Shown piece by piece: positions 5,931 through 38,251 of a stretch of 64,000 bases of DNA (the first letter of the stretch is position 1; each line of letters begins with the position of its first letter). The position numbers and the translations under genes were made by a program. Below the pieces are notes generated by a model. The model was given only the letters and a program-made list of their open reading frames with translations. It did no database searches and was not told where the DNA came from. Source of the DNA: Vreelandella profundi (GTDB lineage: Bacteria > Pseudomonadota > Gammaproteobacteria > Pseudomonadales > Halomonadaceae); NCBI RefSeq assembly GCF_019722725.1, contig NZ_CP077941.1, positions 186,001 to 250,000 of the forward strand, read 5' to 3'.

Positions 5931-5952
5931 GTACTGTTCTAAGGCCTAAAAA
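5931..5952 (+). repeat. Left terminus of the island
   Basis: GTACTG (5931-5936) is the hexamer not derived from this target. TTCTAAGG from 5937 is the inverted-repeat end, followed by GCCTAAAAA. Exact boundaries are inferred by reconstructing the split gene. Confidence 0.75.
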
Positions 5953-6831
5953 TTGAAGTTGCGTGAGTGAGTAAATATATAACGAATTGTTTTATATTAT
6001 ATATATGAAATTTTCATTAGTATTTTATGCACTGTTATATTAAAAAAAGTACCTTTAGCTGCTAATTTGTGGCTTTTTGCCTTTTTTGAGGCACTATAAA
6101 TCTTAACGCTAGCAGGACGAAATGCTGCACGGTTCAATGATACATACACAGGCGTCAGACCAGCGCTCAATGGACTCTTTGGCTAATCTGGATACCGAAG
6201 CGATTCACCCGCTGCCGTATAGATATACCTAAGCTTTAAGGGTGGAGCTGAGCAGCGATAAAACGTTACTTCAGGCTATCTCTTGCGCGTCGTATTCCGG
6301 CCATCTGCCTTTCTTGAGTGTTTGTTTGACCGCTTGTGGCTAGCATTTTCAGCATTGAACTCCCGATAGAGCTTTTCAGATCAAGCCCTTCACGCAAACT
6401 AATAATCGAAACCCTTTGCTTTGCATGAATTGAACTGTATTCAGCACATCGACTGTATCTCGACCCAAGCGATCAATGGCGTAGACTGCTAAACATCCCT
6501 TTCAAGCATATACTCTGCTAATTAAAAAAACTTGTTAGCTGCAACGCTTATAGAACCCCTGATGTTGCTTCCTCACTTTTCCGAACGCATATCAAAAAAT
6601 TGTCATGCAGTTTTGATATTTTTAAACAATGAACATATAAATGATGAAATGATCGCAACATTCAAAATGATGTTGAATCCATAATGTGACCGCGAAGAAA
6701 AAATGTGCAATGATTGTTGCTAAATTTATTTAATTCTCCGCACTGGATAATTCCGTCAACGCTTGCCCGATGTCCCAATACGCACAATATCGGCATAGGT
6801 GAATAATAAGTGTATGTTTTAATCAGCTTTT
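5953..6831. other. AT-rich left end of the island without intact genes
   Basis: Apart from the resolvase relic at 6262-6500 this 0.9 kb has no supportable gene. It is much more AT-rich than the host sequence and contains alternating A/T runs around 5977-6060. The promoter for the ATPase gene at 6832 should lie in 6640-6830, but I see no clean consensus. Confidence 0.6.
6262..6500 (-). pseudogene. Decayed serine recombinase (resolvase/invertase) fragment
   Basis: Reading leftward in two frames gives VYAIDRLGRDTVDVLNTVQ, then after a one-base shift GLDLKSSIGSSMLKMLATS and ERQMAGIRRARD. This is the conserved middle of resolvase/invertase catalytic domains (usual pattern YAIDRLGR...ERQxAGIxRAR). 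The N-terminal catalytic serine region and the DNA-binding end are absent and there are at least two frame breaks, so it is a relic. It lies near the left end of the island and may record an older insertion. Confidence 0.75.
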
Positions 6832-9483
6832 GTGGCTAACGCCAAGAATCTTGATCAGAAGAAAGAGGGAGCGCTGAGAATTGTTATGGGGGCAGTAAAC
6901 ATAGAATACAGCCGATACATGCTGTGGCTGCAAAATACAGATGCGGCGTCTGACGTCAAGCGGATAGCAAAATTAGCAGAAGGTAGCCTTGATGGATTAG
7001 CTCGAACGGTTAGTGCTGGGGGGCAGCGTGCGAAGCTTTTGGCACCGCTTCTACGCCAGAATCTATCGCTGACTGATGATAAAATTGAGCATGTTGAGCA
7101 CCAAGAGGCAGGTGGAGCGCTACCTTGGACTCGCCTCGAAAAACTTACCGTTGGACCATTCCGAGGATTTCGTTGGGAAGAGCAATTCGACCTGAACAAA
7201 TCTGTGGTGCTGTTTTATGGGCCGAATGGGAGCGGAAAAACAAGCCTTTGCGAAGCCATAGAGTATGCTCTCTTGGGTGATGTGGAAGAGGCATCTGCAA
7301 AGCGAATCGGCTCATTAGAAGGTTACTTTTCCAACATCCATGAAGCGGAATATTCCTCACCCCAGTTGTGGTCTGAAGGTGGCCAACTGGTGCATGCGAA
7401 CGAGGAACTGTTGCGCTTTGCGATTATCGAGAAGAATCGCATTGAGGGATTTGCACGCTTGGCCGCACGGCCACCTGCCCAAGCGAGCGCGATGATTGCC
7501 ACGTTGTTCGGGCTTGACAGTTTCAACGATTTCGTAAACAACTTTACCAATACCTTGGATAGCCAGCTACTCCTCGATAAGCCGAAAAGTAAGTTTATTG
7601 ATAGCCAAAGAGCTGCACTGGAAGAAGCCCGCAAGAAGGTCGACAACAAAGATGAGACCTTGAAAAAATTTGATGAAGAGCGGGAGAAAATCGCGAATGA
7701 TTTCCAGGCAGGGTATTCCTTTGAACAGTTAAGTAAGTTACTGGGTATTGCAGAGCCACCGGGAAGGTTGCAAGAGGTAACAAAGCTTCTAGAGGAGCAA
7801 GTTCCCGCTAAGTCTAGGATAGCCGGTTCCGAGCTGATTCGGTTACGCCGTTCATTTCACGCGAAAATGGGAGCTCTTGCCGACTGTGCTAAGCAGCTAG
7901 AACATCGAGCGGAAGAGTTGTCATACCGCGACTTGTACAATGCGGTTTTGGCTCTGGAAGAAGAGTCGAATGACAAGTGTCCGGCTTGCGATACTCCTTT
8001 AGACAGAGCCGAAACTAACCCTTTTGAGCGGGCGACTTATGGACGTGAATTGTTAAAAGATTTGGCAACCCTCGAAAGAGAAAAAGAAGGGCTTCTTGAA
8101 GAGCGTAATAGACTATCGTTACAGGCTAGGCAGGCTCTGACTACTGCTGACAGCCACCATGCGCTAAATACGCCAGCCCTTAAAAATGTGATTGACTGGG
8201 TCCGAAGTGGTGAGCATACCCCAATATGGGAAGTGGAGATTGACGCCGCCGTTTGGCGCGAATTGTTACGAGCCATCCGAAAAATGGAAAGGCGAGATGT
8301 TGAAATTCAGGAGCGATTGGAGCAGCAACAAGAGCTCGTAGATGAGCGCAAACGGTTGGAAAAGGCCAAAGAAAAATTAACAGCGCTAGATGGAAGACAG
8401 GCACAGTACCAAGAACAAATAGCTGAAGAACAGGCGTTAATCGACAATTTCGACGAAGCTAACGCGGCCTTGCTTAAAGAGGTAGAGCAAGAGGAAGAGC
8501 AGCATAAGTTAGAGCTGCGGATACAGGCCGCTTATGCCGACTATCTGGAGGGTATCCGACTTTATAGAGACCAACTTCCAGAAGGCTTGCTAGCGGAATT
8601 GAATGAAACGACACGTGATCTTTACAATCAGATCAATGCTGACGATCACGAAAACGATAAGCTCAATGAATTGATCCTACCTCTTCGTGGAGGGGAGCGC
8701 ATTCAAGTTTCTTTTCGCGGTTCGCCCGATAAAATGCACAATGCCCTGCAGGTGTTGAGTGAAGGCCACCTGCGTTGTCTCGGGTTGGCTATTCTACTGG
8801 CAAAAAATATAAAGCTTGACCTTCCATTTATGGTATTCGATGACGCCGTGAATGCGATTGACCACGATCATCGGGCTGGCATTCGTTCAACAATATTTGG
8901 TGACCCTCGTTTTCAGGCCAAGCAGATATTATTAACAAGCCATAGCAATGAGTTTATAAAAGATATTCATAACCAATTGGGACCTCAATCCTCTAGGCTT
9001 TATGTCCTCAGCCATCATGCCGGTGACCACCAGCCTATTGTTCAGGGTGGAAGTGATCGACATTACCTCGTACGTGCGCGAGAGCGGCTCGATGATGGCG
9101 ACCACAGGCAATGCTTGGCTTCTTGTCGTCAATCGCTTGAAAATTTAACGGCTAGACTTTGGAAGGCGCTGGCGAACAAATCGCAGGAGCTCGGACATCT
9201 CTCGCTGGATCTCCGCTCTCCCACGAGCAGACCTGAACTAAGAAATCTCACAATGAAAATTGAAAAGAGCATTCAGCGTGGTCGGGAGCAGGGTAAACTG
9301 AATAATGAGACATGGGCTAGGAGACACGAAGGGGTTGAGGAAATCTTGAAGGTCCCTGAAAGCCACTTAGCTTGGCAATATCTAAACAAAGGGACCCATG
9401 ACGAAGAGGATAGGGAGGATTTCGAGTTCCAAGTCGTTCGTCAAGTCTTTCGCGCACTTGAAAAGATTAGCCAAACCTTTTGA
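6832..9483 (+). CDS. Rad50-like zinc-hook ATPase with C-terminal HEPN-like domain
   Basis: An 883-residue SMC/Rad50-type ATPase. Walker A GPNGSGKT is at 130-137, long coiled-coil arms follow, and a CPAC zinc hook is near 383-386. A second coiled coil leads to an ABC signature-like LSEGHLRCLGLA, Walker B FMVFDDAVNAIDHDH near 666, and a switch histidine in LLTSHSNEF. After the ATPase, roughly the last 130 residues (SCRQSLENLTARLWKAL ... YLNKGTHDEEDRE) resemble HEPN/DUF4145-type helical domains. The start is GTG at 6832, with no good ribosome site; ATG 6886 is an alternative. It is a single gene without an obvious partner. The architecture recalls phage-defence SMC ATPases such as RloC or Lamassu LmuB, but the effector part does not let me name a system. 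Confidence 0.8.
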   Translation: MANAKNLDQKKEGALRIVMGAVNIEYSRYMLWLQNTDAASDVKRIAKLAEGSLDGLARTVSAGGQRAKLLAPLLRQNLSLTDDKIEHVEHQEAGGALPWTRLEKLTVGPFRGFRWEEQFDLNKSVVLFYGPNGSGKTSLCEAIEYALLGDVEEASAKRIGSLEGYFSNIHEAEYSSPQLWSEGGQLVHANEELLRFAIIEKNRIEGFARLAARPPAQASAMIATLFGLDSFNDFVNNFTNTLDSQLLLDKPKSKFIDSQRAALEEARKKVDNKDETLKKFDEEREKIANDFQAGYSFEQLSKLLGIAEPPGRLQEVTKLLEEQVPAKSRIAGSELIRLRRSFHAKMGALADCAKQLEHRAEELSYRDLYNAVLALEEESNDKCPACDTPLDRAETNPFERATYGRELLKDLATLEREKEGLLEERNRLSLQARQALTTADSHHALNTPALKNVIDWVRSGEHTPIWEVEIDAAVWRELLRAIRKMERRDVEIQERLEQQQELVDERKRLEKAKEKLTALDGRQAQYQEQIAEEQALIDNFDEANAALLKEVEQEEEQHKLELRIQAAYADYLEGIRLYRDQLPEGLLAELNETTRDLYNQINADDHENDKLNELILPLRGGERIQVSFRGSPDKMHNALQVLSEGHLRCLGLAILLAKNIKLDLPFMVFDDAVNAIDHDHRAGIRSTIFGDPRFQAKQILLTSHSNEFIKDIHNQLGPQSSRLYVLSHHAGDHQPIVQGGSDRHYLVRARERLDDGDHRQCLASCRQSLENLTARLWKALANKSQELGHLSLDLRSPTSRPELRNLTMKIEKSIQRGREQGKLNNETWARRHEGVEEILKVPESHLAWQYLNKGTHDEEDREDFEFQVVRQVFRALEKISQTF

Positions 9484-9551
9484 CACCAGCTTAGAAGCTT
9501 GGCCGCTGAAATTGAATGCAACAACTGAGCATTCAGCTAAGGTTTTCCCTC

Positions 9552-9866
9552 ATGTCATACGTCGAACTCAGCATTGACGAGCGTGTCAGCATCCAGTTAG
9601 GCCAAGCCCTTCGAATGAGCCAACGGCATATCACCCGACTCCTAGGGCGAGCCTCCTCGACGATTTTTCGTGAAATACGTCGCTATCAAAAGGTTCAGGA
9701 TACCTACTTTGCACAGCATGCCCAACAGCAACGAGATTGACGGCGAGCCCTCATCTCCCCAAGCGTATACGCATGCCAGGCTCCGAGAGTTTTGAACTCA
9801 TCGTTCATATGTTGTGACGACGGTTGTCTGGTATTTCAGCGCTATTTTTTAGGGAGTTACCAGGCA
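9552..9866 (+). pseudogene. IS30-family transposase, N-terminal remnant
   Basis: MSYVELSIDERVSIQLGQAL and HITRLLGRASSTIFREIRRY form the HTH_38 DNA-binding start of IS30 transposases. The frame stops at 9740. A shifted frame continues with FELIVHMLRRRLSGI, matching the next IS30 segment, before the homology ends about 9866. The DDE catalytic domain is missing and no inverted repeats were found, so it cannot move. Confidence 0.75.
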
Positions 9867-9869
9867 AAG

Positions 9870-11249
9870 TTATATCAGCGACAAGAGATACTGGCGGTAG
9901 TATTGAGAAAAGCTCAGCATCAGTAATGATGGCTCATTAACTTGCAGCTCGTTCTTTCCATTCAGCTCTGTTGCAGAAAGGGGATGATCTTTATTTTCTA
10001 TTTCGCTCACGGTATTGCCATTTGCTTGCTCAGCATGTGATTTGGTCAGACGATCATGAAGCTTTTTTGCCTGCAGCATCGATTGATCATCTGGAAGATC
10101 ATTCGCGATCCTTTGCGAGTATTTACGCAGAGTAGGTTCAGCGATCACATAGAGCCACGCCTCTCTATCTTCAGTGCCCATCTTTCTTAAGATGCGACCA
10201 AGAACCTGCCTGTAGTGAAGCTCGGTACGAATGCGACTGAGGTAACAGCAAACTGAAAGACGCTGTATATCTGTGCCTTCAGAAATCATGCTAACCGCTA
10301 CAATCCAGCAGGTGTTGTCATGCCGAAACCGGTCGATTAGTTGCTGAGCCCGAGGTGTTTTACTGGTGACCACTACATAGCTTTGATGCTTAGCATTCAG
10401 TATTCCAGCAATTTGGTGGGCATGCTCAATATCCGTTGCCACCACTAGCCCCCCAGCTTGAGGGGTCTTATGTCGGGTTTCACTCAGCTGCTGAATACCT
10501 ATATCCAGCACAGCATTGAGGATGTCGTCATGGCGCAACAGGTCTTCGTAGCTAACGGGTGACTCACTGAGTAGTTGAGAGAAGCATGAAAACCCTCGAA
10601 CAGACTCAGTGTTTTCTTTTTCCTCGACGAGCCTGATTAAAGGGTTATCGATCAGCGTAATCCGTGGGGCTCTGCAAACGCCCTCGTTCACAGCACTTTG
10701 TAGGTCGTAACGATAGTCACAGATCAGTTGCCCTTCTGGATCAGAGTACCGTGCCAACGCGATAGGAAGGTCATCAGAACGCCAAGGGGTTCCAGACAAG
10801 CCGAGGGTATAAGTAGCTTGATCCTGGATATTCCGAATAATCTGCTGCCCCCATGTGTTACTAAGGAGAGGATCATGACCTGCGCAGTGATGAATTTCGT
10901 CGAAGATAGCTAATACGCGGAATTTTTTAAAAATATCCCAAAATTCTTCCTGTTGGTATTCCATGGACTGGTAAGTATAAGCGGCTCCTGCGGAGGCAAT
11001 GACGTTTCCAAAACGCTGATCTAAAACAGCAGAAAACGTGCGCTGCATACCTGCAACCACTTCCCGCGTAGGGGCAAAGCAGATAACGAAGTCGATAAGC
11101 TGTTCTTCAAGCAACCCCTTGGCCAATTCGGCAGCAAGACGCGTTTTCCCGCTACCCGGGGTTGCCTGAACGAAATAATCACGGTGGCTCTGATAGTGTG
11201 CTTTGGCCTTGTCTAAACAGTCCGCTTGCCACTTCCGCAATACAATCAT
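9870..11249 (-). CDS. DEAD/DEAH-type SF2 helicase
   Basis: A 459-residue superfamily 2 helicase. Motif I is ATPGSGKTRLA (near 29-36), motif II FDEIHHC (117-121), and motif III is LSGTPWR. The C-terminal domain carries the VSMISEGTDIQRLSV and HYRQVLGRILRKM motifs. It resembles the stand-alone ResIII-type helicases of restriction-like systems, but no nuclease domain is fused; the last 90 residues look variable and polar. Its start overlaps the stop of the upstream gene by 4 bp (ATGA), so the two are translationally coupled. Both are divergent from an XRE regulator at 11937. Confidence 0.85.
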   Translation of the reverse strand: MIVLRKWQADCLDKAKAHYQSHRDYFVQATPGSGKTRLAAELAKGLLEEQLIDFVICFAPTREVVAGMQRTFSAVLDQRFGNVIASAGAAYTYQSMEYQQEEFWDIFKKFRVLAIFDEIHHCAGHDPLLSNTWGQQIIRNIQDQATYTLGLSGTPWRSDDLPIALARYSDPEGQLICDYRYDLQSAVNEGVCRAPRITLIDNPLIRLVEEKENTESVRGFSCFSQLLSESPVSYEDLLRHDDILNAVLDIGIQQLSETRHKTPQAGGLVVATDIEHAHQIAGILNAKHQSYVVVTSKTPRAQQLIDRFRHDNTCWIVAVSMISEGTDIQRLSVCCYLSRIRTELHYRQVLGRILRKMGTEDREAWLYVIAEPTLRKYSQRIANDLPDDQSMLQAKKLHDRLTKSHAEQANGNTVSEIENKDHPLSATELNGKNELQVNEPSLLMLSFSQYYRQYLLSLI

Positions 11250-11857
11250 GAGCCACTGAGGCGGCTTATGGCCTTTTCTAAAGCACTGACATGGCCTAAA
11301 AGACGTGAGCTACGCTCGTGAGCACTGCGGTAGTCAATTGAAAGGCTATTATTAAGCTCTGGATGGTCCCTCATAAGCTGCTGGAAGGCCTCCACTTCCC
11401 CTAAAGATTCCAAAAACCGGCTTTGCGCCTCATTTAACTTTTTTTCCAATACCGTGTAGCTATCGGCAGGCGCCTTTACCGCTTGCCTGTTCTTTTCGCT
11501 ATTTGACTGGCTTGCATCATTGGTCACTGGCTCATTCGGTGTTTGAGGATGAGTACGCTGTAGCCATGAGACAAAGTCATCTTCATCAGTATCAAGATCA
11601 GCTTCTATCAACATAGAGCTTACATGGTACTTCTGGCCGCGGCTCTTTATCTCACTGTCCTTCTCTACAAAGTGGGCCTTAATTAACTTTCTGACGCGCT
11701 CATAAATAAAGCGACGCAGTGGCGCTTTATGCACTGGGTTTACGTCGTATTGCTCAATGTACTGATCCCGAAGGCTTTGAACGCAGAATGTTACATTTTC
11801 TGGTTTCAGTAAGAGTTCAATGATTCGCCTATCTATGCTCGGGAGGTTACGGGACAT
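11246..11857 (-). CDS. Uncharacterised helicase partner, winged-helix-like with coiled-coil end
   Basis: About 203 residues from the ATG at 11857 (MSRNLPSID); longer frames reach 11989 but would overrun the divergent XRE gene. The N-terminal 100 residues (IIELLLKPENVTFCVQSL ... FIYERVRKLIKAHFVEKDSE) look like a small winged helix. A polar linker follows, then a helical/coiled-coil tail. I do not recognise the family. It overlaps the helicase gene by 4 bp, so a two-protein complex is likely. Confidence 0.65.
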   Translation of the reverse strand: MSRNLPSIDRRIIELLLKPENVTFCVQSLRDQYIEQYDVNPVHKAPLRRFIYERVRKLIKAHFVEKDSEIKSRGQKYHVSSMLIEADLDTDEDDFVSWLQRTHPQTPNEPVTNDASQSNSEKNRQAVKAPADSYTVLEKKLNEAQSRFLESLGEVEAFQQLMRDHPELNNSLSIDYRSAHERSSRLLGHVSALEKAISRLSGS

Positions 11858-11936
11858 GGGTATGGGCATCAAAGGAGTGAAAATACGGATTATAAGCCGT
11901 GGCTTGATAGGCCGCAACGCTCGATAGTCCTGCCTC

Positions 11937-12227
11937 ATGACCAATGAGGCAGATATGGAAGAGCTGGCAGTCGCTATCGGAAAAAACATTAGGGAAAAGC
12001 GCCGAGCGAATGGCCTCTCTCAGGATCGCTTTGCATTAGTAGCAGGCATTGATCGTAGCTATATGGGGAAGATAGAGCGTGGTGAGGTGAGCATCACCTT
12101 AGAGAAGCTATACAGGATTGCAGAAGCTTTGCATTGCGAGCCGATATCCCTGCTCCCTAAGATGTCTTCCATTCGCCTACAAACCCCTCGTAAGACCAAT
12201 AAGGGCGGACTTAACGAAGTACGATAG
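11937..12227 (+). CDS. XRE-family HTH regulator
   Basis: A 96-residue protein with a canonical Cro/C1-type helix-turn-helix: AIGKNIREKRRANGLSQDRFALVAGIDRSYMGKIERGEVSITLEKL, presented here only as the recognised order of helices around SQDRFALVAGI and RSYMGKIERG. It diverges from the helicase pair across 79 bp, so it is the natural regulator of that module, as in restriction controller proteins and many phage-defence operons. Start is ATG 11937; a second ATG at 11955 (MEELAVAIG) is also possible. Confidence 0.88.
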   Translation: MTNEADMEELAVAIGKNIREKRRANGLSQDRFALVAGIDRSYMGKIERGEVSITLEKLYRIAEALHCEPISLLPKMSSIRLQTPRKTNKGGLNEVR

Positions 12228-12885: not shown

Positions 12886-14322
12886 TCAGCGACTTTTAGC
12901 TATTGACGAGATAGATCCACAATCGTTTGGCCTATCAAACGAAGAGCTGCCATCGACATAACCGTGTACAAGGCGACCTACTCTTTCTACAGTAGCTTTA
13001 TTGGTAGAAATAAATCCTATTGGCATAGAAACTGGCAACGTTTCAGGCTGCGAGAAGTGATACACAACTACCACTAATTCGCCTTCGAGATGAATTATTT
13101 CAACACTGCCACCAAGCATGCCCTCAGATAGTCCGTTGATAGATTTTTCAAAGCTTCTGAACTCATGACACCAACTTTTAGCGGCACGGGTGTCATCAGG
13201 CCCGAATACGGGTACATATAGAGTTTGTTTGTACAGTTGCTTATCCTTGGTAGACGCCCTGTTGATGAATTCGCTAATCGCTTCTCTTACTCTGTCATTT
13301 TTGGCCCAAAAGGGATCGGACGGAGCAATCCATGTAAAGCGGGCATCACTGTGATCTGATTTCGTCTTGATACGCCTCGCCAGTAATGGTGCAAGAATAC
13401 TTTGGAACTGTTCCCAGTTTGATTGAGTATATATCTGACCTACGAACGTTTTTCGATCCGCCTCATTGTATTCTTCCAGCTTTTGTAAATCATCTATGAA
13501 ACGCGGGTTGGCGGAGTTCGTTTTAGGATCAAAGACCTTCAACGTGTCCTCATCCCCAATCTCATTCATCGCCTGCATAAGAGCCATCGTATTTGAGGGT
13601 CGCACTAGCTTTGATAAACTTACCGCGATAAGCCCATGCACGATTTCAGAGTCATTTAGTTGCTCAAAATTGTCTCTTTCTACCGATTTCCCATCTTTCC
13701 CAACTTTAAATTTTGTCGTGAGGCGAAGAGGTAAATCTCGTAATTTGTTTACTGCATTTACCGTATAGACATATGGCCTCTCCTTGGAATCTTGGCTTAC
13801 AGCCTTGGGCAAAAAATCTTTCTCAAGTATCTGGGAAAATTGATGTTGGAAGTGCTTCTCAACCAGCTTTTCACTTTGGGAGATATGGTTCCGGTCGACC
13901 TCCAGTGAAATACCAGCTCTCCAGCCATCGTTCACATTTTGATTGCTAAAACAGCTAAAGCTGGCCAAATCAAAGGAGAGTGTCGCACCGCTGTCCAAAA
14001 CAGCCGAAAGTTGAGGAGTTTCCCCTAAGTCTGTGAAGTAACCTTGTGAGAGTCCTGTCAGCATGAGTCGACCGGTATCTGAAAGTGCCAATTCTCCTCG
14101 CTGAACTAAATCTGATACAGCCTCTTCGGTCTCAAGCCGGCTAAGACCGAAGTAAGTGGCTATTTGGGATTTACTCATTGGAGCGATGTGAACCAGACGG
14201 AGAACGAACTCTCTAATAAATGGTAACCCTTTTTGAGTTACATAAGAAAACTGGATATTGAATCTTTGTGCCGGAAGAAGGAAATCGACTTCCTGATAAG
14301 TCATTTTGTTTTCTGAATCCAT
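12886..14322 (-). CDS. Winged-helix partner of the NERD-kinase-helicase protein
   Basis: A 478-residue protein of no family I recognise. Residues about 30-95 look like a winged helix (FVLRLVHIAPMSKSQIATY ... LETEEAVSDLVQRGELALSD ... GRLMLT). The rest is mixed alpha/beta without nuclease, HKD or transmembrane motifs. Its ATG overlaps the TAA of the 1659-residue gene by one base (TAATG), implying coupled translation and equal dosage. The region is AT-richer than the host backbone. A DNA-binding or sensor role beside the giant enzyme is an inference from context. Confidence 0.75.
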   Translation of the reverse strand: MDSENKMTYQEVDFLLPAQRFNIQFSYVTQKGLPFIREFVLRLVHIAPMSKSQIATYFGLSRLETEEAVSDLVQRGELALSDTGRLMLTGLSQGYFTDLGETPQLSAVLDSGATLSFDLASFSCFSNQNVNDGWRAGISLEVDRNHISQSEKLVEKHFQHQFSQILEKDFLPKAVSQDSKERPYVYTVNAVNKLRDLPLRLTTKFKVGKDGKSVERDNFEQLNDSEIVHGLIAVSLSKLVRPSNTMALMQAMNEIGDEDTLKVFDPKTNSANPRFIDDLQKLEEYNEADRKTFVGQIYTQSNWEQFQSILAPLLARRIKTKSDHSDARFTWIAPSDPFWAKNDRVREAISEFINRASTKDKQLYKQTLYVPVFGPDDTRAAKSWCHEFRSFEKSINGLSEGMLGGSVEIIHLEGELVVVVYHFSQPETLPVSMPIGFISTNKATVERVGRLVHGYVDGSSSFDRPNDCGSISSIAKSR

Positions 14323-25776: not shown

Positions 25777-25791
25777 GATGAGGAGGCGCTG

Positions 25792-28923: not shown

Positions 28924-28936
28924 TGTTCAGGCTTGC

Positions 28937-29371: not shown

Positions 29372-29848
29372 TTAATCTCGGTCAATTTCAGTAATCTGTG
29401 ACGAACCCTGCTGCACCTTTATATCCAGCTCATGACCATTCTGGTCTCGCCCATCAATGTCGATCATGCCGGTTTTGCTGATTTCAATTTCTTCAAATTC
29501 GATCATGCCTTCTTGGCTGGCGTTATTGATTGCCTGACGAATATCGTCTTCGCTCATGCCCCAGGGACCAGTAATCAGGCGTTTCCGTTCTTCTTTTAAG
29601 GGGTCGCCATTATCTAATGAGAACTCAACATCGGCAAACCACTCACCATCCAGCCAGCCTTCAACTTCTGCACGGTTACTGCTTTTAATTTCAATCTCTT
29701 CATAATGTGTGAACCCGTACTCTCTGGTGTAGGCTAGAATCTCATCAATACTATCTAGCGGTTGGTAATCTGCGTGTACGTTGCCTGTCGCAGCGGTAAG
29801 CAGTAGGGCAGAAGCAGGGATCAACAGCATTTTTTTCATGGTGTTCAT
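29372..29848 (-). CDS. Secreted PepSY-like protein, intact paralogue of the interrupted gene
   Basis: A 158-residue protein with a signal peptide (MNTMKKMLLIPASALLLTAATGNVHA) and two PepSY-like halves. The second is EDDIRQAINNASQEGMIEFEEIE, ending ITEIDRD. By hand alignment it is about two-thirds identical to the reconstructed host protein split by this island, and the same length. Homology continues upstream: a GAAGGAATTTG ribosome site, AAGCTGACAAA, and the paired GTTCAT box also occur before the host copy. PepSY-like periplasmic proteins often sit beside two-component systems. Here the copy is cargo and may replace the disrupted gene. Confidence 0.85.
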   Translation of the reverse strand: MNTMKKMLLIPASALLLTAATGNVHADYQPLDSIDEILAYTREYGFTHYEEIEIKSSNRAEVEGWLDGEWFADVEFSLDNGDPLKEERKRLITGPWGMSEDDIRQAINNASQEGMIEFEEIEISKTGMIDIDGRDQNGHELDIKVQQGSSQITEIDRD

Positions 29849-30037: not shown

Positions 30038-32269
30038 TCATCGAGTTTGAGAAAACTTTGCCAACTTCCTTTCAATATCCACTTGTCTCCAGCTGGCCGA
30101 GTTGCCTGCTTTAACGGCCTCCTGCAGGCAGTCGAGGTCAGCTACCATTACAAGGCGATCGGTTGGGCGCGTAGAGGCCGTGTATATCAACGACGCATCA
30201 AGCATCTGCTGAGCTTCTCGTGTGAACACTGAGAACACGGTGTGCCACTGAGTGCCTTGTGCTTTATGAACGGTTATGGCGTAACCTAGATCCAATACTT
30301 CCAGCAGTGTTTGATTGATACCTTTCATTTCGCCATTAATTTCGGCGACGCCGTACCAGCCCTCAGAGCTTATAGAGGGGTACACTTCGGTAATAACGCC
30401 AAGATCACCATTGCGAACATCTAGATCGTCGTCGTAAATGTTTGCTTTCACAAGTATTGGGTCACCCTGCTTCAAGCTTTGACTATAGAGCGTGAACCAG
30501 GGTATCCAACCTTTCGCGGGGTCTAGGTAATGCAGTTCACCACGTGTCTCCCCCTGTACGCGCTGGAAGTGATCGTTAAGTGCAGTCACTCCCCAATTAC
30601 CTGAGTGGCGAGGGGACAAGATGATGCGATCACTCAGTTTGCCTGCATCACACCAGAACCGCGTCAGCCGATCCAAGGAAGGCGGTGACAAGATGCAGCA
30701 GTCCGACGAAGTAGAGAAAGTTTCTGCTCCCATCTTCGATACTATGGTTTCACCTTTTCTCACCGCAGTCGCAAAACGATGTATCTGACTCTGCTCTGAC
30801 TGTCGCTTCACCTGAGTCAATTCAAAGAATGGGATCACCGAGTTATAGAGCGAGTGGAAAACTAAGCCACCCCCAACCGGGGGCAGCTGGGCACTATCCC
30901 CAATTAGAATGATGCGACTTGCTTCAGGTAATAGGCCAACTAGGCGATACATAGACAGCAGATCAACCATCGACGCCTCATCAATGATGATCACCACATG
31001 ATCAGGCAATGATGGTTTGCTTTTCCCCTGGTGATCAGAGATCAATTTGGCAATCGTTTGAGCAGGCCTACCAATGCTTTGCGCCATGTGCCGGGCAGCC
31101 CGGCCAGATAAGGCTAATGGCAGGCAGAGCTCTCTATCAGCAAGAACTTCATACAGACCAATGATAGCCTTCAAAATCGTCGTTTTACCGGTTCCTGCTC
31201 CACCAGAGATACCCACAACGGGAGCTGAGAATGCTCCTATTACGGCTTGGCGCTGTTCTTCTGAAAGAGTGAAGGGCAATTGATGCTCAAGGCAGGCTAG
31301 AGCGTTATGCAGTGTCAATTTATCAACCTGCCTTTCCCAGGCCGCGTGCAAGGAACCCTGTCCCGCAGGGCGGCTCAAAGCTGCTACCAATTTTCGGGCT
31401 ACTTCAGCTTCCATGAATGCTGTGCCCCACGTTTGATAACCATCCGGAGCACGCACGAGCAGGCCTTGGTTAACCGCTGCTACTCCCGGATCAATGTCAC
31501 TCGGTGAGCGTATGAGTTTATTTACAGATTGACGCAATACTTGCTCGGAGACCACCGTCGAACCGCTACTGCTTGTTCGCTTGACCACAACATGCATCGC
31601 CGCACCTGCAGCAAGCATTTCATCGGACAGGTTCAGCTTGAGTTGGTCGATGACAGTTAATACTTGGCTATATGAAACATTTAGACCGATCAATAGAAAA
31701 GGATTATCAGTCAATCGTTTAATGGCATCATCGCCAAATAAATTAGTCAGCTTAAAGCCTAGAGAAGGGCTCAGATTCAAAGCATCCAGCCAGTCCATGG
31801 TCTGATACAAACATTCCGATGGCCATTGCTCAATGAGTCGGTGGACTAGCGTGGCATTCATGCCAGGCACCTCACACAGTTTGTCGACTTCAGCATTCCT
31901 AACCCATTTCTCCAGGTTGCGTTGGCGCACTAATCGGTTAGCAATAACCTCCCCTATGCCCTCAACTCGAATCCTGATCCAACGGCTCAATGTGTGCTTG
32001 GAAGGCCTAACCAATGAGGCATGAGTTGCTTCCAGCACATCTTCATAAATGAGGAAGCCACTCACCATAAATTGATTAATTACCTGCGGGCCTGTGACCT
32101 TCCACAACGACCCAGTAGGAATTTCACCATAATGATGGGGAAAACGAACAATCAACGACCGATGACGTTTTTTGATTGAGCCATCAGAGTTGATGACGTG
32201 GACGTAGCAATATCCACCTTTGCGTTGTTTGGCGACCTGAACGAGGCTATAAAGCCTTGCACTGGTCAT
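30038..32269 (-). CDS. RecD-like SF1B helicase, last gene of mobility operon
   Basis: A 743-residue helicase of the RecD/RecD2 type. The N-terminal region contains helix-hairpin-helix segments (RVEGIGEVIANRLV, CEVPGMNATLVHRLIEQW). The motor has GGAGTGKTTILKA (motif I), IIIDEASMVD (II), GDSAQLPPVGGG (III), and the C-terminal YAITVHKAQGTQW plus IYTASTRPTDRLVM. Its ATG overlaps the preceding stop by 4 bp (ATGA), so it is translated with the recombinase genes. A dedicated helicase is unusual in tyrosine-recombinase elements and suggests a replication or strand-processing step in movement. Confidence 0.85.
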   Translation of the reverse strand: MTSARLYSLVQVAKQRKGGYCYVHVINSDGSIKKRHRSLIVRFPHHYGEIPTGSLWKVTGPQVINQFMVSGFLIYEDVLEATHASLVRPSKHTLSRWIRIRVEGIGEVIANRLVRQRNLEKWVRNAEVDKLCEVPGMNATLVHRLIEQWPSECLYQTMDWLDALNLSPSLGFKLTNLFGDDAIKRLTDNPFLLIGLNVSYSQVLTVIDQLKLNLSDEMLAAGAAMHVVVKRTSSSGSTVVSEQVLRQSVNKLIRSPSDIDPGVAAVNQGLLVRAPDGYQTWGTAFMEAEVARKLVAALSRPAGQGSLHAAWERQVDKLTLHNALACLEHQLPFTLSEEQRQAVIGAFSAPVVGISGGAGTGKTTILKAIIGLYEVLADRELCLPLALSGRAARHMAQSIGRPAQTIAKLISDHQGKSKPSLPDHVVIIIDEASMVDLLSMYRLVGLLPEASRIILIGDSAQLPPVGGGLVFHSLYNSVIPFFELTQVKRQSEQSQIHRFATAVRKGETIVSKMGAETFSTSSDCCILSPPSLDRLTRFWCDAGKLSDRIILSPRHSGNWGVTALNDHFQRVQGETRGELHYLDPAKGWIPWFTLYSQSLKQGDPILVKANIYDDDLDVRNGDLGVITEVYPSISSEGWYGVAEINGEMKGINQTLLEVLDLGYAITVHKAQGTQWHTVFSVFTREAQQMLDASLIYTASTRPTDRLVMVADLDCLQEAVKAGNSASWRQVDIERKLAKFSQTR

Positions 32270-32685
32270 GGTTTTACCTCAAACCCGACCATGCCTTCGT
32301 GAATTGCTTCCTCCAATGCACGGTAGCGAGATAATTGTTTTCTAAGCGCTTTATTTTCTGACTCTAGCTCGGTAACGCGAGCAATTAGCTTGTCACTGTC
32401 TGAGAAAACTACTTGCGCTTGGATTTCCGCATTAGATCTAGTCTTATCAGCGGGCTCTGTGCCAAACCATTCCCGATCACAGCATTCTAGGAGCGCTTTA
32501 ACTCCTTTATTTTGTACACATACGCTTCGCGAGAAGCCACATTCACGTGCCACTTCAGTTCGCTTAACACGACCGGCATAAGAGTACTCATGAGCTTTCC
32601 CCGTTGCTTCAATACAAGCCTTCCAGGCTTGTGCTCGTTGCAAATACTCATCCCCCATCTGTTTGCCGTTTTTGCCTAAAGTCAC
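32266..32685 (-). CDS. Small HTH/coiled-coil protein of mobility operon
   Basis: A 139-residue protein starting GTG 32685, or ATG 32655 (MGDEYLQRAQAW). Residues 40-75 (GRVKRTEVARECGFSRSVCVQ) look like a helix-turn-helix. A leucine-rich coiled coil follows (SDKLIARVTELESENKALRKQL). This layout resembles Tn554 TnpC-type accessory proteins. It starts 11 bp after the preceding gene and overlaps the RecD-like gene by 4 bp. Confidence 0.65.
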   Translation of the reverse strand: MTLGKNGKQMGDEYLQRAQAWKACIEATGKAHEYSYAGRVKRTEVARECGFSRSVCVQNKGVKALLECCDREWFGTEPADKTRSNAEIQAQVVFSDSDKLIARVTELESENKALRKQLSRYRALEEAIHEGMVGFEVKP

Positions 32686-32695
32686 GCAATACTCG

Positions 32696-33112
32696 CTAGT
32701 TGATGTTGTCTGGCAGTGGGTTAGTCAATAACTCCTGTAATTTCTTGGTATCCATGCCAGGGAATAGATAGGCATTGCGCTGCAAGCGCAGAATAGCATG
32801 TTGGAGGTTGTTCACTTTCTGAGTTTGGTGTTCCAATTCAGACTGCAGTTTTTCATTTTTCCTTCGAAGTATTTCAATCGTTGAGTCGGTGCTCTTTTCG
32901 GCAGGGGGTTGCTCTCTGAGTCGAGCTTTCACCTTGTGGTAAACCTCCACAATTTCATCGTGTTTGTAGAGCGAGCGCTTGGCTATCCGGTCTACTTTTA
33001 AGCGCTTTGCGAGCTTGCTGGCATATAGATCCCAAGTTAATTTTCCTTGCCAACTGTGCAGTAAACCAAGAGCCAGGGGCAACGTCTGCTCGGTAATGAT
33101 TTTTTTAGGCAC
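32696..33112 (-). CDS. Small accessory protein, GmtX-like
   Basis: About 138 residues from the GTG at 33112, which overlaps the stop of the preceding recombinase (GTGCCTAA). The N-terminal half (LLHSWQGKLTWDLYASKLAKRLKV ... LYKHDEIVEVYHKVKARLRE) is followed by a coiled coil (IEILRRKNEKLQSELEHQ). The WQGKLTWDLY-type start and position after the large recombinase fit what I recall of the gamma-mobile-trio protein GmtX; this needs a profile search. A longer frame from 33181 lies within the upstream gene. Confidence 0.6.
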   Translation of the reverse strand: MPKKIITEQTLPLALGLLHSWQGKLTWDLYASKLAKRLKVDRIAKRSLYKHDEIVEVYHKVKARLREQPPAEKSTDSTIEILRRKNEKLQSELEHQTQKVNNLQHAILRLQRNAYLFPGMDTKKLQELLTNPLPDNIN

Positions 33113-35249
33113 CTTCCACCATCCCCAGCAGTTTATTGATCTCTTGTGTGACACTGTCTTGTGATTTTTCTGGCACCTCAAACCCTTTGGCCATGAGGTT
33201 TACCTTCAGAGGGCTGGGATCGAAGTGTTCATCGACCCCAAGCACCGTGCCATCAGCGATTGTTGGATCTTCCATTTGCCGCACCAAGGATTCAGCAATG
33301 GCATAACGGATCACGTTGTACGTCATCCACTGATCTACTCCCAATTGGTCTCGCTCCTTCTGCCAAGCTTCAAGAGCATCAAACTCTGCTTTGTGGTGAG
33401 AGGCAGCTTCTCTAAGTCTTTCAAGGCAGCCTGGTGCCCCCTTGATATATTTTTTTTCAGAACAGGTTAGGCAATCCCCACCTTTCATACATGGGGGTTC
33501 GGAAATGGAGTGTGTGCAGCCTCCAAACTCACCGATTTGGATAGGCTGAGGCACCCCATGCACTCCGAGCGCTCGACCTAGTAATTCATGGCGATAGATA
33601 GGAGTACCGACAACTAGCCGCTTATGGAGCGGAAGGTTATCGCTTGATATTCCAATGAGCTGTCGATATTGAGCTGCTTTTTGTTCCGGCGTGTTAAAGT
33701 CATAAGCATCGTTTTGAAGGATATCTTGTCGGCCGGCCAGCATTCGCAGTCTGTGCTCTGACAATCCTTTAAATGCTAATGCTCGCCCACGGGTGCCGTG
33801 CCAGCGGCGGAAGTCATGGGAGACCAGTTGGATCGGAGACCCATCATCCATCGTCAGCCCCAATCGATCAAAAAGACTGAACATCGTTTTCTCGCCCTTT
33901 TCCCACTTTCCACTTAGTTGATTACATAGTTGCGTTGTCGTTATCAAGCAGTAACTGTTGGGATAAACGCTCTTGAAAGAATTATCGTGAAACTGGTTCC
34001 ATTGATGAAGAATGAGCGACTCCCAAACCTTAACGCGTCCGCTGTTGGAGGTATGTGGCCAGTGAGGCAGTTTATTTTTAAATTTTTGGTAGTCAGCCTG
34101 TGCGATGTCCTGATAAGTAGGGTTTCCGTCTTTAAAACATGGAAGATGCCAGCCAGAGTATGTTCGCGATGCGCGAATATTTGGCCAAAATTGCCTCCCC
34201 GTACGGTCTAAATTTGCCGTTCGACACATAGCGTGAGCCGTTTCCATGTCGTTAAGCACTCTATCCTGCGGGTAATTCTTTGAAGTAATGCAAAGCTCGT
34301 GAATTGGGTAAACTGTGCCATGCGTGTCGTAAGCCAGCTTGGCAGCTTTTCGAGCCGGTTCTGACAACCGCAACAAGCGCTTGAATGCTTGCACCACCAT
34401 ATCCATCAGCCGGGATTCCTGTGTTTCATTGCCGTTGGAGCTGGGCAGTCGAGGAACCCACTTAACGTTTGCACCGAACCCCTTTTCGGAGAACCAGCGT
34501 AGACCGACTCGCCTCTTTGTGCGGCCATATCTATCGGTGTAGTGCTCATCAATTAGCGAGTCCTCTCTTAAGTCTACAAGTTCACCCCCTCGACTAGAGG
34601 CAAAAGCAAGCAACAGCGCCAAGCTCGACCAATATTGATCCTTATCTGTTTTAGCTAATTCAAAAGCAACAAGCACCGTTGCCAGCTTGCGGTCATCAGG
34701 AGTTTTGTCTTTACGCCAGGCAATCGCGGAGGGGGTCATGGATGAGCTTCTGTTATCACTCTTCCATGGCGATTGCCAATGGGGTAATGCAGGGTGAATT
34801 CCTTGCTTCCGCAATTCTGTGTATAGACTCATCAGTTCGAGCCCTATGTAATGGGTACTTCTTCTTCTTTTGGAGCCATACCAAGCAACGAGCTTCTCAA
34901 AAACTAGTTCCTGCACACTTCCGTCTACTTTGAGAATATCGGGTACACTGTGAAGCTCTTTCAATGCCGCATACACAAATCGCAACGCTAACAGCAAACT
35001 TTTTATTGGTACTCTTTCTTTATTGTATTGGTTATGGCGCACATAGGCTTTAGCGAACTCAAGAAACGGTTCCTGCATAGGCACAAAAGGTTTTCTGCCA
35101 TGAGTCCTCAATTCGCAGAACGCTATGGTTATAGGGGATCTCAGGGTTGTAGTGACCCAGGTATTAGCATCCCAGCCATCTTCGCCGCCATAAATGCTTA
35201 GCTTGCGCGCACTTTCGATGTAGGTTTTAAGAATACCTCTCGATGACAT
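33105..35249 (-). CDS. Large tyrosine recombinase, GmtZ-like integrase
   Basis: About 714 residues from ATG 35249 (MSSRGILKTYIE). Catalytic tyrosine-recombinase features are ASSRGGELVDLR (first arginine), SHDFRRWHGTRGRAL (H-x-x-R) and LAGRQDILQNDAYDF (terminal tyrosine). A cysteine-rich C-terminal segment follows (CTHSISEPPCMKGGDCLTCSEKKY), suggesting zinc binding. It is much longer than phage integrases. It begins 7 bp after the preceding recombinase gene stops. Size and position fit the 'integrase' member of the gamma-mobile trio. Confidence 0.75.
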   Translation of the reverse strand: MSSRGILKTYIESARKLSIYGGEDGWDANTWVTTTLRSPITIAFCELRTHGRKPFVPMQEPFLEFAKAYVRHNQYNKERVPIKSLLLALRFVYAALKELHSVPDILKVDGSVQELVFEKLVAWYGSKRRRSTHYIGLELMSLYTELRKQGIHPALPHWQSPWKSDNRSSSMTPSAIAWRKDKTPDDRKLATVLVAFELAKTDKDQYWSSLALLLAFASSRGGELVDLREDSLIDEHYTDRYGRTKRRVGLRWFSEKGFGANVKWVPRLPSSNGNETQESRLMDMVVQAFKRLLRLSEPARKAAKLAYDTHGTVYPIHELCITSKNYPQDRVLNDMETAHAMCRTANLDRTGRQFWPNIRASRTYSGWHLPCFKDGNPTYQDIAQADYQKFKNKLPHWPHTSNSGRVKVWESLILHQWNQFHDNSFKSVYPNSYCLITTTQLCNQLSGKWEKGEKTMFSLFDRLGLTMDDGSPIQLVSHDFRRWHGTRGRALAFKGLSEHRLRMLAGRQDILQNDAYDFNTPEQKAAQYRQLIGISSDNLPLHKRLVVGTPIYRHELLGRALGVHGVPQPIQIGEFGGCTHSISEPPCMKGGDCLTCSEKKYIKGAPGCLERLREAASHHKAEFDALEAWQKERDQLGVDQWMTYNVIRYAIAESLVRQMEDPTIADGTVLGVDEHFDPSPLKVNLMAKGFEVPEKSQDSVTQEINKLLGMVEGA

Positions 35250-35256
35250 ATCTAGG

Positions 35257-36825
35257 TTACTTATGACTTGTCCCTCGCTCTTTTTGCTCTTCACAGAGGC
35301 GTATAGTGGCTTTAATCGCCGCGATGGGCAGATCCAGGGAGTCGACTTGTTGGCCACTCAATCCCTGAGAGATGCGCTTTTGACGCTCCGCTACTACTTG
35401 GGCCAGCGCTTCATTATGAGGTGCGTCAATAAAGGGGTGGAATTTAGGGCAGGCATAGCAGTTTAAGATGCCACTGCCGCATAGTTGGGCGCAATTGCCC
35501 ACTTGATCATCACGATTTAAGTAGATTTTTGCTTGCCCTGCTATCGGTTCACCAAGCAATCGCTTTTCCTTAATATCGAGAACAGGCTCCCAAGCCTCCA
35601 CCATGATGCCATCACAGGCTGCCTGATCTTCGTAGGTATGGGCGGTGTAAACCTTGACTGTATCCGTTGTCACGTGTCCCAGAACTGTGGCAATTAATTC
35701 ATCACTAGCCCCTGCCTCAGCAAGACGCGTCGCAACGGTGCGCCGAAATCGGTACAAGGAGATTGGTAATAAGTCTCCATCAAGCCTCGACGTGGTAACA
35801 GGGCATTTCTGAAGGCTGCCGATTATATGGCTATGAATATGAACATCGAAGGTTCTTGGCGTCTTAGCGAGGCGGTGCTCAAAATCTTCGCTGCTTCCAG
35901 CAGCGAGCAAGCGACGCCCTACAAACAGTGGCAACTTTTTGGAAAGTTGAGGGGGGATCGTTTGGCCCCAAGCTTGGGCTACTTTGTTTTGGCCTTCGAC
36001 AATCACTTGCTTAAGAAGGGCATACAGGTCGGGGGGAAGCTCTAGCTTGCGATTCGCAGCTCGATAGTTGCGGCTACCTTTGGCAGTGGGTATGGCTAAT
36101 TCGTAAATATGTTCGGCTTGATCTTCAATGACATCGCAGGCTCTCATTGCCCCGATCTCCACTGGACGACAACCAAACTCGACCTGGATGAGAAGAATTG
36201 CATAGGCCTGCAAAGGTAGTATCTCATCAGCATAGGCAGCGTGAATCCAGCGAAGTAAAGCAACTTCCTCTATCTGAGAAAATGGCCCTCGCACGGGGCA
36301 TTGTTCACGAACAATTTGACCAGTGTTATTTCTGGAGCCTACTTTGATCTGATGTACGTGGTTCCCCAACCCTCTCTCCAGGCCTGGATAACAACCATCG
36401 GACCAAGCAATCAAGGCAGCCCGGCATTGATGTATGTAATTCAGCCGGGTAGGTGTCGAAATCTGTCGAGTCGAAAGTTGAGCGCGCCACAGCTCAAAGG
36501 ACTTGATCGTTATTTCATCGGTGCAGTAGTGAAGCAATGACAAGATACGATCAAACAGATCTCTCGCATAACGTTCGGAGACTTCTTCAACCAATTCAGA
36601 CATGGTTTTGCGAAATGAGTCTAGAACCTTAGGTGAAACTCGGTCGGTCAGCCCATTCATATCCAAAGCAGACCAAGGCAATTTTAATGTTCGTCCAATA
36701 CGCCACTCGTCACTTTCGTACACATAAGTTTCACCTGAACGCGCTGTCTTCAGCGTTTGCTTAAGCGTGGCTACTGGGGAGTCAGCCTGATTATGTGTTA
36801 TTGCCGCTGTCTGCTTTATTGGCAT
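35257..36825 (-). CDS. Tyrosine recombinase with C-terminal cysteine motif, TnpB-like
   Basis: A 522-residue protein from ATG 36825 (MPIKQTAAITHNQ). Motifs are FGCRPVEIGAMR (first arginine), YRFRRTVATRLAE (tyrosine in place of the usual first histidine, arginine kept) and VLGHVTTDTVKVYTAH (histidine and nucleophile tyrosine). The C-terminus has CGSGILNCYACPKFHPF, a likely zinc site. It overlaps the 428-residue recombinase gene by 35 bp. Two or three adjacent overlapping tyrosine recombinases are typical of Tn554 (TnpA/TnpB) and GMT elements. Confidence 0.8.
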   Translation of the reverse strand: MPIKQTAAITHNQADSPVATLKQTLKTARSGETYVYESDEWRIGRTLKLPWSALDMNGLTDRVSPKVLDSFRKTMSELVEEVSERYARDLFDRILSLLHYCTDEITIKSFELWRAQLSTRQISTPTRLNYIHQCRAALIAWSDGCYPGLERGLGNHVHQIKVGSRNNTGQIVREQCPVRGPFSQIEEVALLRWIHAAYADEILPLQAYAILLIQVEFGCRPVEIGAMRACDVIEDQAEHIYELAIPTAKGSRNYRAANRKLELPPDLYALLKQVIVEGQNKVAQAWGQTIPPQLSKKLPLFVGRRLLAAGSSEDFEHRLAKTPRTFDVHIHSHIIGSLQKCPVTTSRLDGDLLPISLYRFRRTVATRLAEAGASDELIATVLGHVTTDTVKVYTAHTYEDQAACDGIMVEAWEPVLDIKEKRLLGEPIAGQAKIYLNRDDQVGNCAQLCGSGILNCYACPKFHPFIDAPHNEALAQVVAERQKRISQGLSGQQVDSLDLPIAAIKATIRLCEEQKERGTSHK

Positions 36826-38077
36826 TGTCGTGGCGCTTCTGATTGATTTCACGTAAAGTTTTCTTGGCGAGTTTTTGATTATGTACTCGGGTATAATCGT
36901 CTTGTGATTTCGGATTGTTGTGACCCAGCAGGTATTGAACAATCGCTGTTTGATCTGCGTTGGCAATGCCTTGCTCTGCCAAGTCGCTTTTGACTTTCAA
37001 CGTGAAGCCATGACGAAATTGATGCCGTGTTAATCCCGAAAAAGTGTCAGGGCGTGTGCTGACCACCAGCCCCATCTCCTGCATCACTGCTTTAGATGAA
37101 ATCGGCTTGCCCCTGCCATTGCTTGCATGGGTCACAAAAAGCAAAGGATGACTTTGCGCTTCATAAATCTGGTTTCGCACTTCAATCACGTATTGGTGGA
37201 TGAGGCGGGCGAGTTCGTCCGCGATAGGTATGACTCTTGGCTCGGTCTTGGCTACCGACTGTTTCGAACGTGGATCTCGTGGGTCATGATGCCTTCGAAC
37301 CACATGAACGTTATTATCGGCGCCATATTCGATATCTTTCTCCCAGAGCCCCAAAACTTCACCGGATCGTAAACCTGCTTCGTACTGCAGGCGCATCATA
37401 ATGTAATGCCTAAGTTGTCGAGCCGGATTTCTGAAGGGGTTATCAATTGCGCCTGGTGTAGCGACTTTCAGATAAGTTTCGAAGACTAATTTATTTGGGG
37501 TTCGGTAAGCTCCGCTGTTTTGCGAATAGCTTCGGGTGCGAGGGGTCATTTGCCGTAAGCCATCAATCATACGATCAATGTAAGGCTTCATGGTTACAAA
37601 ATCGGGGCGCTTCCGCATAACAGTTTCGGCTAGAAATTTTAGGTATTGAGCGACATAGCCCATCCGAATAGCGCGATGGTTAGAATTGACCGTCAATACT
37701 TGCGGCGTTTTATAACGACTTAGGCTTGCTAAATTGATGAGGCTGGCTGCTTTTATACTCTCAGCTTGAGCAACCCAACTTTCGAACGCTTCGCTGTCGA
37801 GCTTACAGTGATCACGGATTGAGTATAAATCTTCCTGCTCCAACAGATGTTTGTCGTAAAATTCATCTGCGAGCACTCTCCCATTGAAATTTTCCCAACG
37901 CCGCAAATGCTTTAACGCTGACAATACCTTTTCCAATGTACTCGCCTGACTCTTAGGCCTCATAACAACAGTTATGAACAAGGAAATGTAGAAATCAGGC
38001 ATGCCTCTACTATCGACTAGCAATGGATATCTTTCACCCGACTCAAAGACTAGAACCTTCGTCAGCAAATCAACCAT
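36791..38077 (-). CDS. Tyrosine recombinase, first gene of mobility operon (TnpA/GmtY-like)
   Basis: A 428-residue site-specific recombinase whose catalytic residues are complete. AGLRSGEVLGLWEKDI gives the first arginine and TRHQFRHGFTLK gives H-x-x-R. IVQYLLGHNNPKSQDDYTRV gives the second histidine and nucleophilic tyrosine. It is the promoter-proximal gene of the leftward mobility operon and lies about 170 bp from the island's right end, the normal place for an integrase next to its attachment site. Confidence 0.88.
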   Translation of the reverse strand: MVDLLTKVLVFESGERYPLLVDSRGMPDFYISLFITVVMRPKSQASTLEKVLSALKHLRRWENFNGRVLADEFYDKHLLEQEDLYSIRDHCKLDSEAFESWVAQAESIKAASLINLASLSRYKTPQVLTVNSNHRAIRMGYVAQYLKFLAETVMRKRPDFVTMKPYIDRMIDGLRQMTPRTRSYSQNSGAYRTPNKLVFETYLKVATPGAIDNPFRNPARQLRHYIMMRLQYEAGLRSGEVLGLWEKDIEYGADNNVHVVRRHHDPRDPRSKQSVAKTEPRVIPIADELARLIHQYVIEVRNQIYEAQSHPLLFVTHASNGRGKPISSKAVMQEMGLVVSTRPDTFSGLTRHQFRHGFTLKVKSDLAEQGIANADQTAIVQYLLGHNNPKSQDDYTRVHNQKLAKKTLREINQKRHDNANKADSGNNT

Positions 38078-38222
38078 GCAGAGACTCCTTATTTGTACTT
38101 TTAGAGTATCTTGCCATTCTAAATAAAGATACTAAGTAAAAGGCACTTTAAGGATTTTATTTTTTGCTCAATAATTAGATTTTATTTGTATTATATCAAT
38201 GGTTTATATTTTTTTAAGGCAT

Positions 38223-38251
38223 CTTTCTTATAGATATTCTAAGAAGTCTAG
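38223..38251. repeat. Right terminus of the island with target core
   Basis: Reading inward on the minus strand: CTAGAC (38251-38246, target core shared with the gene), then TTCTTAGAATATC, and TATAAGAAAG. TTCTTAG corresponds to TTCTAAG at the left end, one mismatch. Confidence 0.75.

Follow-up and report, generated by a model that had tools for sequence, protein, structure and literature searches.

In the marine bacterium Vreelandella profundi, a 64,000-nucleotide stretch of contig NZ_CP077941.1 (positions 186,001 to 250,000; the window, from a genome called G000 here) contains an island inside a gene for a 158-residue PepSY-type protein. The question raised by this locus is how a mobile element came to split a conserved gene, and where the six foreign base pairs at one of its ends come from. 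The explanation proposed here, which is considered highly probable as a whole, is that a GInt, an element of the Tn6571 family, entered the gene by exchange of a 6-bp segment and carries an internal copy of its target.

The split gene and its junctions

The element measures 32,309 bp (5937-38245), with a further 6 bp at 5931-5936, and lies between codons 67 and 68 of the 158-codon gene, which begins at 38446 on the minus strand. The 5′ fragment (38246-38446, minus strand) comprises 67 codons, and the 3′ fragment (5655-5930, minus strand) comprises codons 68-158 and the stop (91 codons) and is 98.9% identical in amino acids to its counterpart in the relative G011. Joined together, the two fragments form an open frame of 158 residues, with a signal-peptide-like start by eye, which aligns end to end and without gaps with an intact internal copy at 29372-29848.

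On the minus strand, GGCTGG-CTAGAC stands before the element end TTCTTAGAA at attL, and the element end CTTAGAA stands before CAGTAC-GATGAG at attR. The attL spacer CTAGAC, which is the last 6 bp of the 5′ fragment (38246-38251), is host-like; the attR spacer CAGTAC (5931-5936, minus strand) is foreign. The end bearing ginA adjoins the host-like 6 bp, and the other end adjoins the foreign ones. Read inward, the ginA-proximal (left) terminus (38206-38245, minus strand) is TTCTTAGAATATC and the ginA-distal (right) terminus (5937-5976, minus strand) is TTCTAAGGCCTAAAAATTG. The heptamer TTCTAAG, present at both junctions, has 8 matches in the window where 6.9 are expected, which is no enrichment. 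The junctions are supported by the split gene and the empty sites rather than by this heptamer.

Empty sites in the genus

The joined protein found a match in 62 of 82 genomes of the genus and none in the other 20. The gene is unsplit in 59 of them, split in two (G000 and G026) and broken in one (G022); among the unsplit genes, that of G069 has two in-frame stops and that of G098 was matched from residue 18 only. The internal copy, used as a query against 58 genomes (the own genome and relatives), matched 29. Site DNA was read in 42 of the 59 unsplit genes, at the loci returned by the searches. The left arm is GGYTGG in all 42, the central two codons are Leu-Asp in 41 and Leu-Ser in one, and neither extra codons nor CAGTAC occur in any of these sites. 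The consensus of the insertion site, corresponding to codons 64-69, is GGYTGG-YTNGAY-GAYGAR. A neighbouring PepSY122 gene was present within the fetched 1.5 kb in 25 of the first 26 loci, to which this check was confined (the other 16 lie outside it), and those loci are therefore the same locus.

Since the empty sites are uninterrupted, the island entered an undivided gene without duplication of the target, and CTAGAC is host-like. An earlier sequence-only reading of the window had proposed one island between two fragments of one gene, no duplication of the target and a different core at either end, CTAGAC at the right junction (attL here) and CAGTAC at the left one (attR here). These claims agree with the joined frame, with its gapless alignment and with the unsplit gene of the relatives; the codons for FLEQY, whose presence in empty sites would have spoken against that reading, are found in none of the 42 sites. 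It had also expected GGCTGG-CTAGAC-GATGAG as the empty site. The site is indeed uninterrupted and CTAGAC occurs in two relatives, but these have GACGAA after it, and the closest relative, G011 (98% in amino acids), has GGCTGG-CTGGAC-GATGAG.

In G010, an intact gene is accompanied by a decayed copy (L037:2976-3170; matched codons 2-66, one stop) near ORFs (open reading frames) that look transposase-like by eye. Its likeness seems to extend slightly beyond the insertion codon after a frame change, and the copy is probably a product of plain decay rather than a relic of insertion.

Recombination genes and family assignment

Inward from attL, four genes, ginA, ginB, ginC and ginD, follow each other on the minus strand at one end of the element, in the order that characterizes a GInt. 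The first, ginA (36791-38077), encodes a tyrosine recombinase of 428 amino acids (PF00589) in which R237, H352, R355 and Y395 are invariant in 21 aligned sequences. The ginB ORF (35257-36966, 569 amino acids) encodes a tyrosine recombinase with the catalytic end of these enzymes; its true start is probably 40-55 codons inside the ORF, because the G026 frame has a stop in that stretch. The product of ginC (33105-35249, 714 amino acids) has no Pfam match, and its R220, H478, R481 and Y516 are invariant in 16 aligned sequences, with G506-R507 where LGH is usual. The ginD ORF (32696-33181, 161 amino acids) resembles its relatives from about residue 24. Two more genes of the same strand come after ginD, one for a small VPA1267-family-like protein (32266-32685; 57.5 bits, below the curated cut-off of 90) and one for a RecD2-like SF1B helicase (30038-32269; TIGR01448, 304 bits, below the cut-off of 500).

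When the GinC profile was compared with that of GinA, hhalign returned a nonsignificant probability of 0.5% (E 0.11), the aligned stretch spanning both HxxR motifs; against solved structures, a XerC-like chain was found at E 0.27, which is not significant either. C-terminal to the recombinase-like motif of GinC (P0023, residues 578-604), C578, H580, C587, C593 and C596 are invariant in the 16 aligned sequences and perhaps form a metal site.

The element is filed here as a GInt of the Tn6571 family on the basis of its homology to islands at GInt-type targets, the published GInt proteins being known by description only. GInts are defence-carrying elements of the Tn6571 family in the passages available from PMC10121019, and they occur in 10.3% of Halomonas replicons with a median size of 34.9 kb according to the available part of PMC10214605. 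In the parts consulted of PMC5385486, PMC10214605 and PMC10121019, ginA-ginB-ginC-ginD at one end, that is, a recombinase trio with a small fourth protein, is described as here, and so are a size in the same range, defence cargo, site-specific entry and a 6-nt exchange. Related islands adjoin ssb and other published kinds of GInt target. Differences also exist: the element sits in the middle of a gene, truly splits it and carries an intact copy of it; VPA1267-like and RecD2-like genes, on which those passages are silent, come after ginD; and the alignment indicates that GinC keeps R, HxxR and Y.

Three adjacent tyrosine recombinases are also found in RIT elements, in which neither ginD nor cargo would be expected. 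A likeness to Tn554 was suggested by the sequence-only reading, which called the hexamers at the ends Tn554-style. Tn554 is not known to duplicate its target, and it leaves different 6-bp cores at its two ends. An unduplicated target with different 6 bp at the two ends is thus a shared way of working rather than a mark of membership, and in this respect the comparison was sound. The gene set tnpA-tnpB-tnpC, known here by description, is not matched by an element with three recombinase-like genes and ginD, which is here classed as a GInt and not a Tn554. Passages of PMC10214605 attribute tyrosine recombinases and a 6-bp footprint to Tn554, but also tnpA, tnpB and tnpC with two RHRY recombinases and no counterpart of the third recombinase-like gene. 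The mechanism was read well from the bare sequence, though the family was misnamed.

SE-6283, inserted in bcp, is similar in several respects. According to the available parts of PMC9345347 and PMC10214605, 6 bp are exchanged between inverted motifs, with the host core at attL and a foreign core at attR, and the element has its own copy of the split gene, located beside the recombination operon to judge by the locus tags VYA_19790 (srap) and VYA_19800 (bcp). Nevertheless, the SE gene order is intA-tfp-intB-srap, and passages of PMC10214605 place SE and GInt proteins in separate clusters. The second gene of the present element has the recombinase catalytic end which SE tfp lacks, and its relatives sit at GInt targets; SE proteins, too, are known by description.

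A second insertion at the same codon

G026 (Vreelandella piezotolerans) harbours a 30,566-bp relative of the element between the same two codons, with CTGGAC at attL and CAGTAC at attR. Its right terminus has TTCTAGG, and an internal copy of the target stands at the same place, behind the helicase. Besides their ends, the two islands have in common the block from the gin genes to the spare copy, a piece at 19.5-21.1 kb and, not far from the right end, a pair of helicase genes.

At fourfold sites, the identity of G000 and G026 is 0.34-0.48 for 11 whole or partial host genes (a further three had no match in the fetched stretch), against 0.67-0.81 in the four gin genes; the values are 0.72 for the RecD2-like helicase, 0.75 for the helicase pair and 0.62 for the spare copy. 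The gene tree joins the split gene of G000 to its unsplit counterpart in G011 (100/97) and that of G026 to the unsplit genes of G014 and G028 (100/99), and the internal copies of both genomes form a clade of their own (99/98). Because of the silent-site divergence and the gene tree, the insertions are regarded as independent, and we infer that they are two separate landings of a horizontally moving element that carries a spare copy.

Proposed exchange of the core and possible origins of CAGTAC

In the mechanism suggested by published work on GInts and SEs, a 6-bp spacer would link the element ends in a circle formed by the Gin proteins; in GInts, the circular intermediate depends on all four gin genes. 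In an exchange with staggered cuts 6 nt apart, the spacer of the circle would then come to lie at attR and that of the target would stay at attL, and the target would not be duplicated. According to a passage of PMC10214605, the transposition of an entire GInt had not been reproduced in the laboratory. Support of an independent kind is provided by a kin element of 37,557 bp in G647, a metagenome-assembled Oleiphilaceae genome (68% identity in GinA), which splits ggt and has AATATT at both ends. In three of the four relatives looked at, the ggt site holds exactly two codons at this place, once, and the fourth (G652, L164) did not fit the pattern; this comparison is in favour of a 6-bp exchange segment. 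At the right end of the ggt-splitting island (L108, G647:C4, about 143060-143230) ACTTTATTACT occurs as three near-repeats, and one of these forms a 15-bp inverted repeat with the left end.

The occurrence of CAGTAC in both apparently independent insertions points to a shared donor site or to a spacer kept by the element, and we lean slightly to the latter. CAGTAC would in effect be part of the element if, contrary to the rule for SEs, the attR spacer is retained in the circle, and the last site visited would go unrecorded. This possibility, whose chance is put a little short of even, explains why identical 6 bp are found in two insertions whose independence is indicated by silent sites and the gene tree, and it is allowed by GInt circle data, since among 22 cloned circles the old spacer was retained in half and the attB spacer was acquired in the other half (PMC5385486). 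There are, however, two cases only, which a shared donor, e.g., one plasmid, also explains, and the cores of the G647 element are equal and fit the host reading frame.

The sequence-only reading had taken CAGTAC for the left-flank 6 bp of the previous site, the circle taking the donor attL spacer and placing it at the new attR. This possibility is held with less than even confidence. Transfer of the donor's left-flank 6 bp to the new attR, by a strand-biased circle, is the published rule for SE-6283 and SE-6945 (passages of PMC9345347 and PMC10214605), and both G000 and G026 combine a host-like core at attL with a foreign one at attR. On the other hand, both donors would need CAGTAC at attL, which none of the 42 PepSY sites has, and the circles with the old spacer (PMC5385486) depart from that rule. 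A search for a second locus with CAGTAC, by which the earlier reading was to be checked, came to nothing: the attR end with CAGTAC (at most one mismatch) is present in two of 275 genomes of the family, both being the islands themselves, and no donor site was found among them. In the own genome, GGYTGG-N6-GAYGAR gave seven matches against four for the reversed control, none of them with CAGTAC. The same string of attR end and CAGTAC in viral contig L146 falls inside an ORF of 706 amino acids; the contig has no blast match to the element, and the string was taken as chance.

A single ancestral insertion inherited by both species, in which case the shared CAGTAC would be trivial, is quite improbable. 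The identity of gene, codon and internal copy in G000 and G026 agrees with it, as do two shared cargo pieces that diverge about as much as host genes. It is opposed by the empty sites in G011, nearest to G000, and in G014 and G028, nearest to G026, and by the gin genes, which are far more alike than host genes at silent sites. A conventional integrase island with TTCTAAG as a duplicated 7-bp target can be dismissed: the two junctions share the heptamer, oriented alike on the plus strand, but empty sites without the added codons (42 of 42) refute the duplication, and the right end in G026 reads TTCTAGG.

The carried copy of the target gene

The intact internal copy (29372-29848, minus strand; 158 amino acids, PepSY_2) has the right arm GGTGAG instead of GATGAG, the second base of this arm being A in all 42 host sites. 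In both islands it lies about 190 bp behind the helicase, and the sequence upstream of it resembles that upstream of the host gene. Since the two internal copies form one clade, they go back to one acquisition event and not to two. With its own upstream region, the copy would make good the loss caused by insertion, and the altered right arm may keep it from becoming a target itself. The spare copy is likely a remedy for the split gene.

SE-6283 carries a copy of bcp, the gene which it splits (passages of PMC9345347). A carried target copy is not mentioned for GInts in the available passages of PMC5385486, PMC10214605 and PMC10121019, and Bardaji and colleagues considered that GInt insertion probably does not fully inactivate its target (PMC5385486).

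Related islands

Fourteen islands were compared, namely those of G000 and G026 and 12 others fetched from search hits. They are not a random sample, and further hits (e.g., G607, G650, G106, G412, G454, G054 and G222) were left out on account of short contigs or for economy. All four gin genes were detected in order in eight islands (G000, G026, G647, G649, G648, G510, G398 and G569), four of which (G649, G510, G398 and G569) adjoin the 3′ end of ssb by eye. Altogether, gin homologues adjoin the ssb 3′ end in six islands, as indicated by an SSB frame seen by eye in G398, G496, G569 and G109 and by the C-terminal DNA motif only in G649 and G510; ssb is a published GInt target (PMC5385486). By eye, they adjoin the 5′ end of an ABC-F-like gene in G563 and G493 and come after an nrdB-like gene in G403, where the published target is the alpha subunit. 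No ginC match was found in G403, G383 and G109. A pattern search for attR in the six ssb-inserted islands gave five matches in three islands, none of them convincing. As regards the spare copy, short matches about 47 kb away in G563 were not counted, and in G648, which had just 287 bases left of ginA, a copy would scarcely have come to light.

In six islands of the 14 (G000, G026, G647, G649, G398 and G403), the gin genes are followed by the VPA1267-like gene and the RecD2-like helicase, the helicase of G403 being in two pieces about 10 kb apart. These genes have no mention in the passages available on GInts (PMC5385486, PMC10214605 and PMC10121019), and their presence after ginD in distant hosts (32266-32685; L109, L130 and L106) suggests a six-gene core of a GInt subgroup. 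The gamma-mobile-trio (GMT) appeared in the literature search as a passing mention only, and no paper devoted to it was found.

Within the genus, 12 of 82 genomes contain GinA relatives, and only those of G000 and G026 exceed 40% identity. Matches on plasmids amounted to 65 and 58 records, with 23-28% identity in the best 25 listed of each. Viral contigs gave one distant GinC match and no GinA match.

Cargo

Between the right end and the spare copy, the element begins with a gene for an SMC/RecF-like ATPase of 883 amino acids (6832-9483, plus strand), which gave partial, weak PADLOC matches only. It is followed by a DEAD/ResIII helicase (459 amino acids) and its 247-residue partner (9870-11989, minus strand), the pair shared with the G026 element at 91.5% and 85.5% amino acid identity. 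The next two genes (12886-19301, minus strand) match MkoA and MkoB in PADLOC over nearly the full length, with 2072 and 428 bits; they form a complete-looking putative defence pair, presumably a Mokosh-like system. In a scan of seven cargo proteins of G026, no match to MkoA or MkoB was found at E 1e-15 (for one protein, among the best 25 of 60 families). A type I restriction-modification system follows, with HsdM, HsdS and HsdR (21406-28923, plus strand) and, between HsdS and HsdR, a 152-amino-acid ORF and a PDC-S11/DUF4268 protein. The remaining cargo differs between the islands, G000 having MkoA/MkoB and the type I system with PDC-S11, and G026 another type I system. The ORF at 20264-20635 is just the C-terminal end of a UmuC-like polymerase (end of IMS_C, DUF4113), whose G026 counterpart has 443 amino acids with IMS, IMS_C and DUF4113 (L035:14934-16265).

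Weighing of the explanation and its significance

Several observations weigh against the explanation given here. The evidence for the mechanism is all comparative, and no circle was observed. Only two insertions with mismatched cores were found; they have the same foreign core and may share a history before insertion. The third element, in ggt, has equal cores at both ends, and the terminal inverted repeats in G000 are short (TTCTTAG/TTCTAAG). At fourfold sites, the UmuC-end piece (0.43) and the ORF 19510-20229 (0.56) are as divergent as host genes or nearly so. GinB scores 255.8 bits against NCBIfam integrase_1 (NF041502), below the cut-off of 350; a score above this cut-off is not among the features by which GInts have been defined in print. 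In the GinC alignment, R, HxxR and Y do not vary, though the GInt and SE papers describe GinC as devoid of part or all of the catalytic motif, and no profile or structure match confirms these residues as catalytic. Finally, a convincing spare copy was found in two of the 14 islands only, both of this clade; it therefore looks like a trait of the clade and not of GInts in general.

Within the known GInt kind, the carried replacement of the target and the foreign core shared by two insertions are noteworthy. Taken together, these features may be read, tentatively and with rather less than even confidence, as those of a GInt that has made its target replaceable: it would split one conserved PepSY-type gene, in the two known cases at the same codon, bring a site-altered copy and pass on an unchanged CAGTAC as attR spacer, with a circle opposite to the SE rule, and SEs and GInts would have come upon the target-copy solution independently of each other.

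Two insertions of near relatives in the same codon, apparently independent of each other, together with many empty sites in one genus, constitute a natural record of the 6-bp exchange. The G000/G026 system is suited to testing whether the GInt circle takes the attL or the attR spacer. Moreover, the carried spare suggests a way for such an island to insert itself mid-gene at a conserved locus while the host retains the function.

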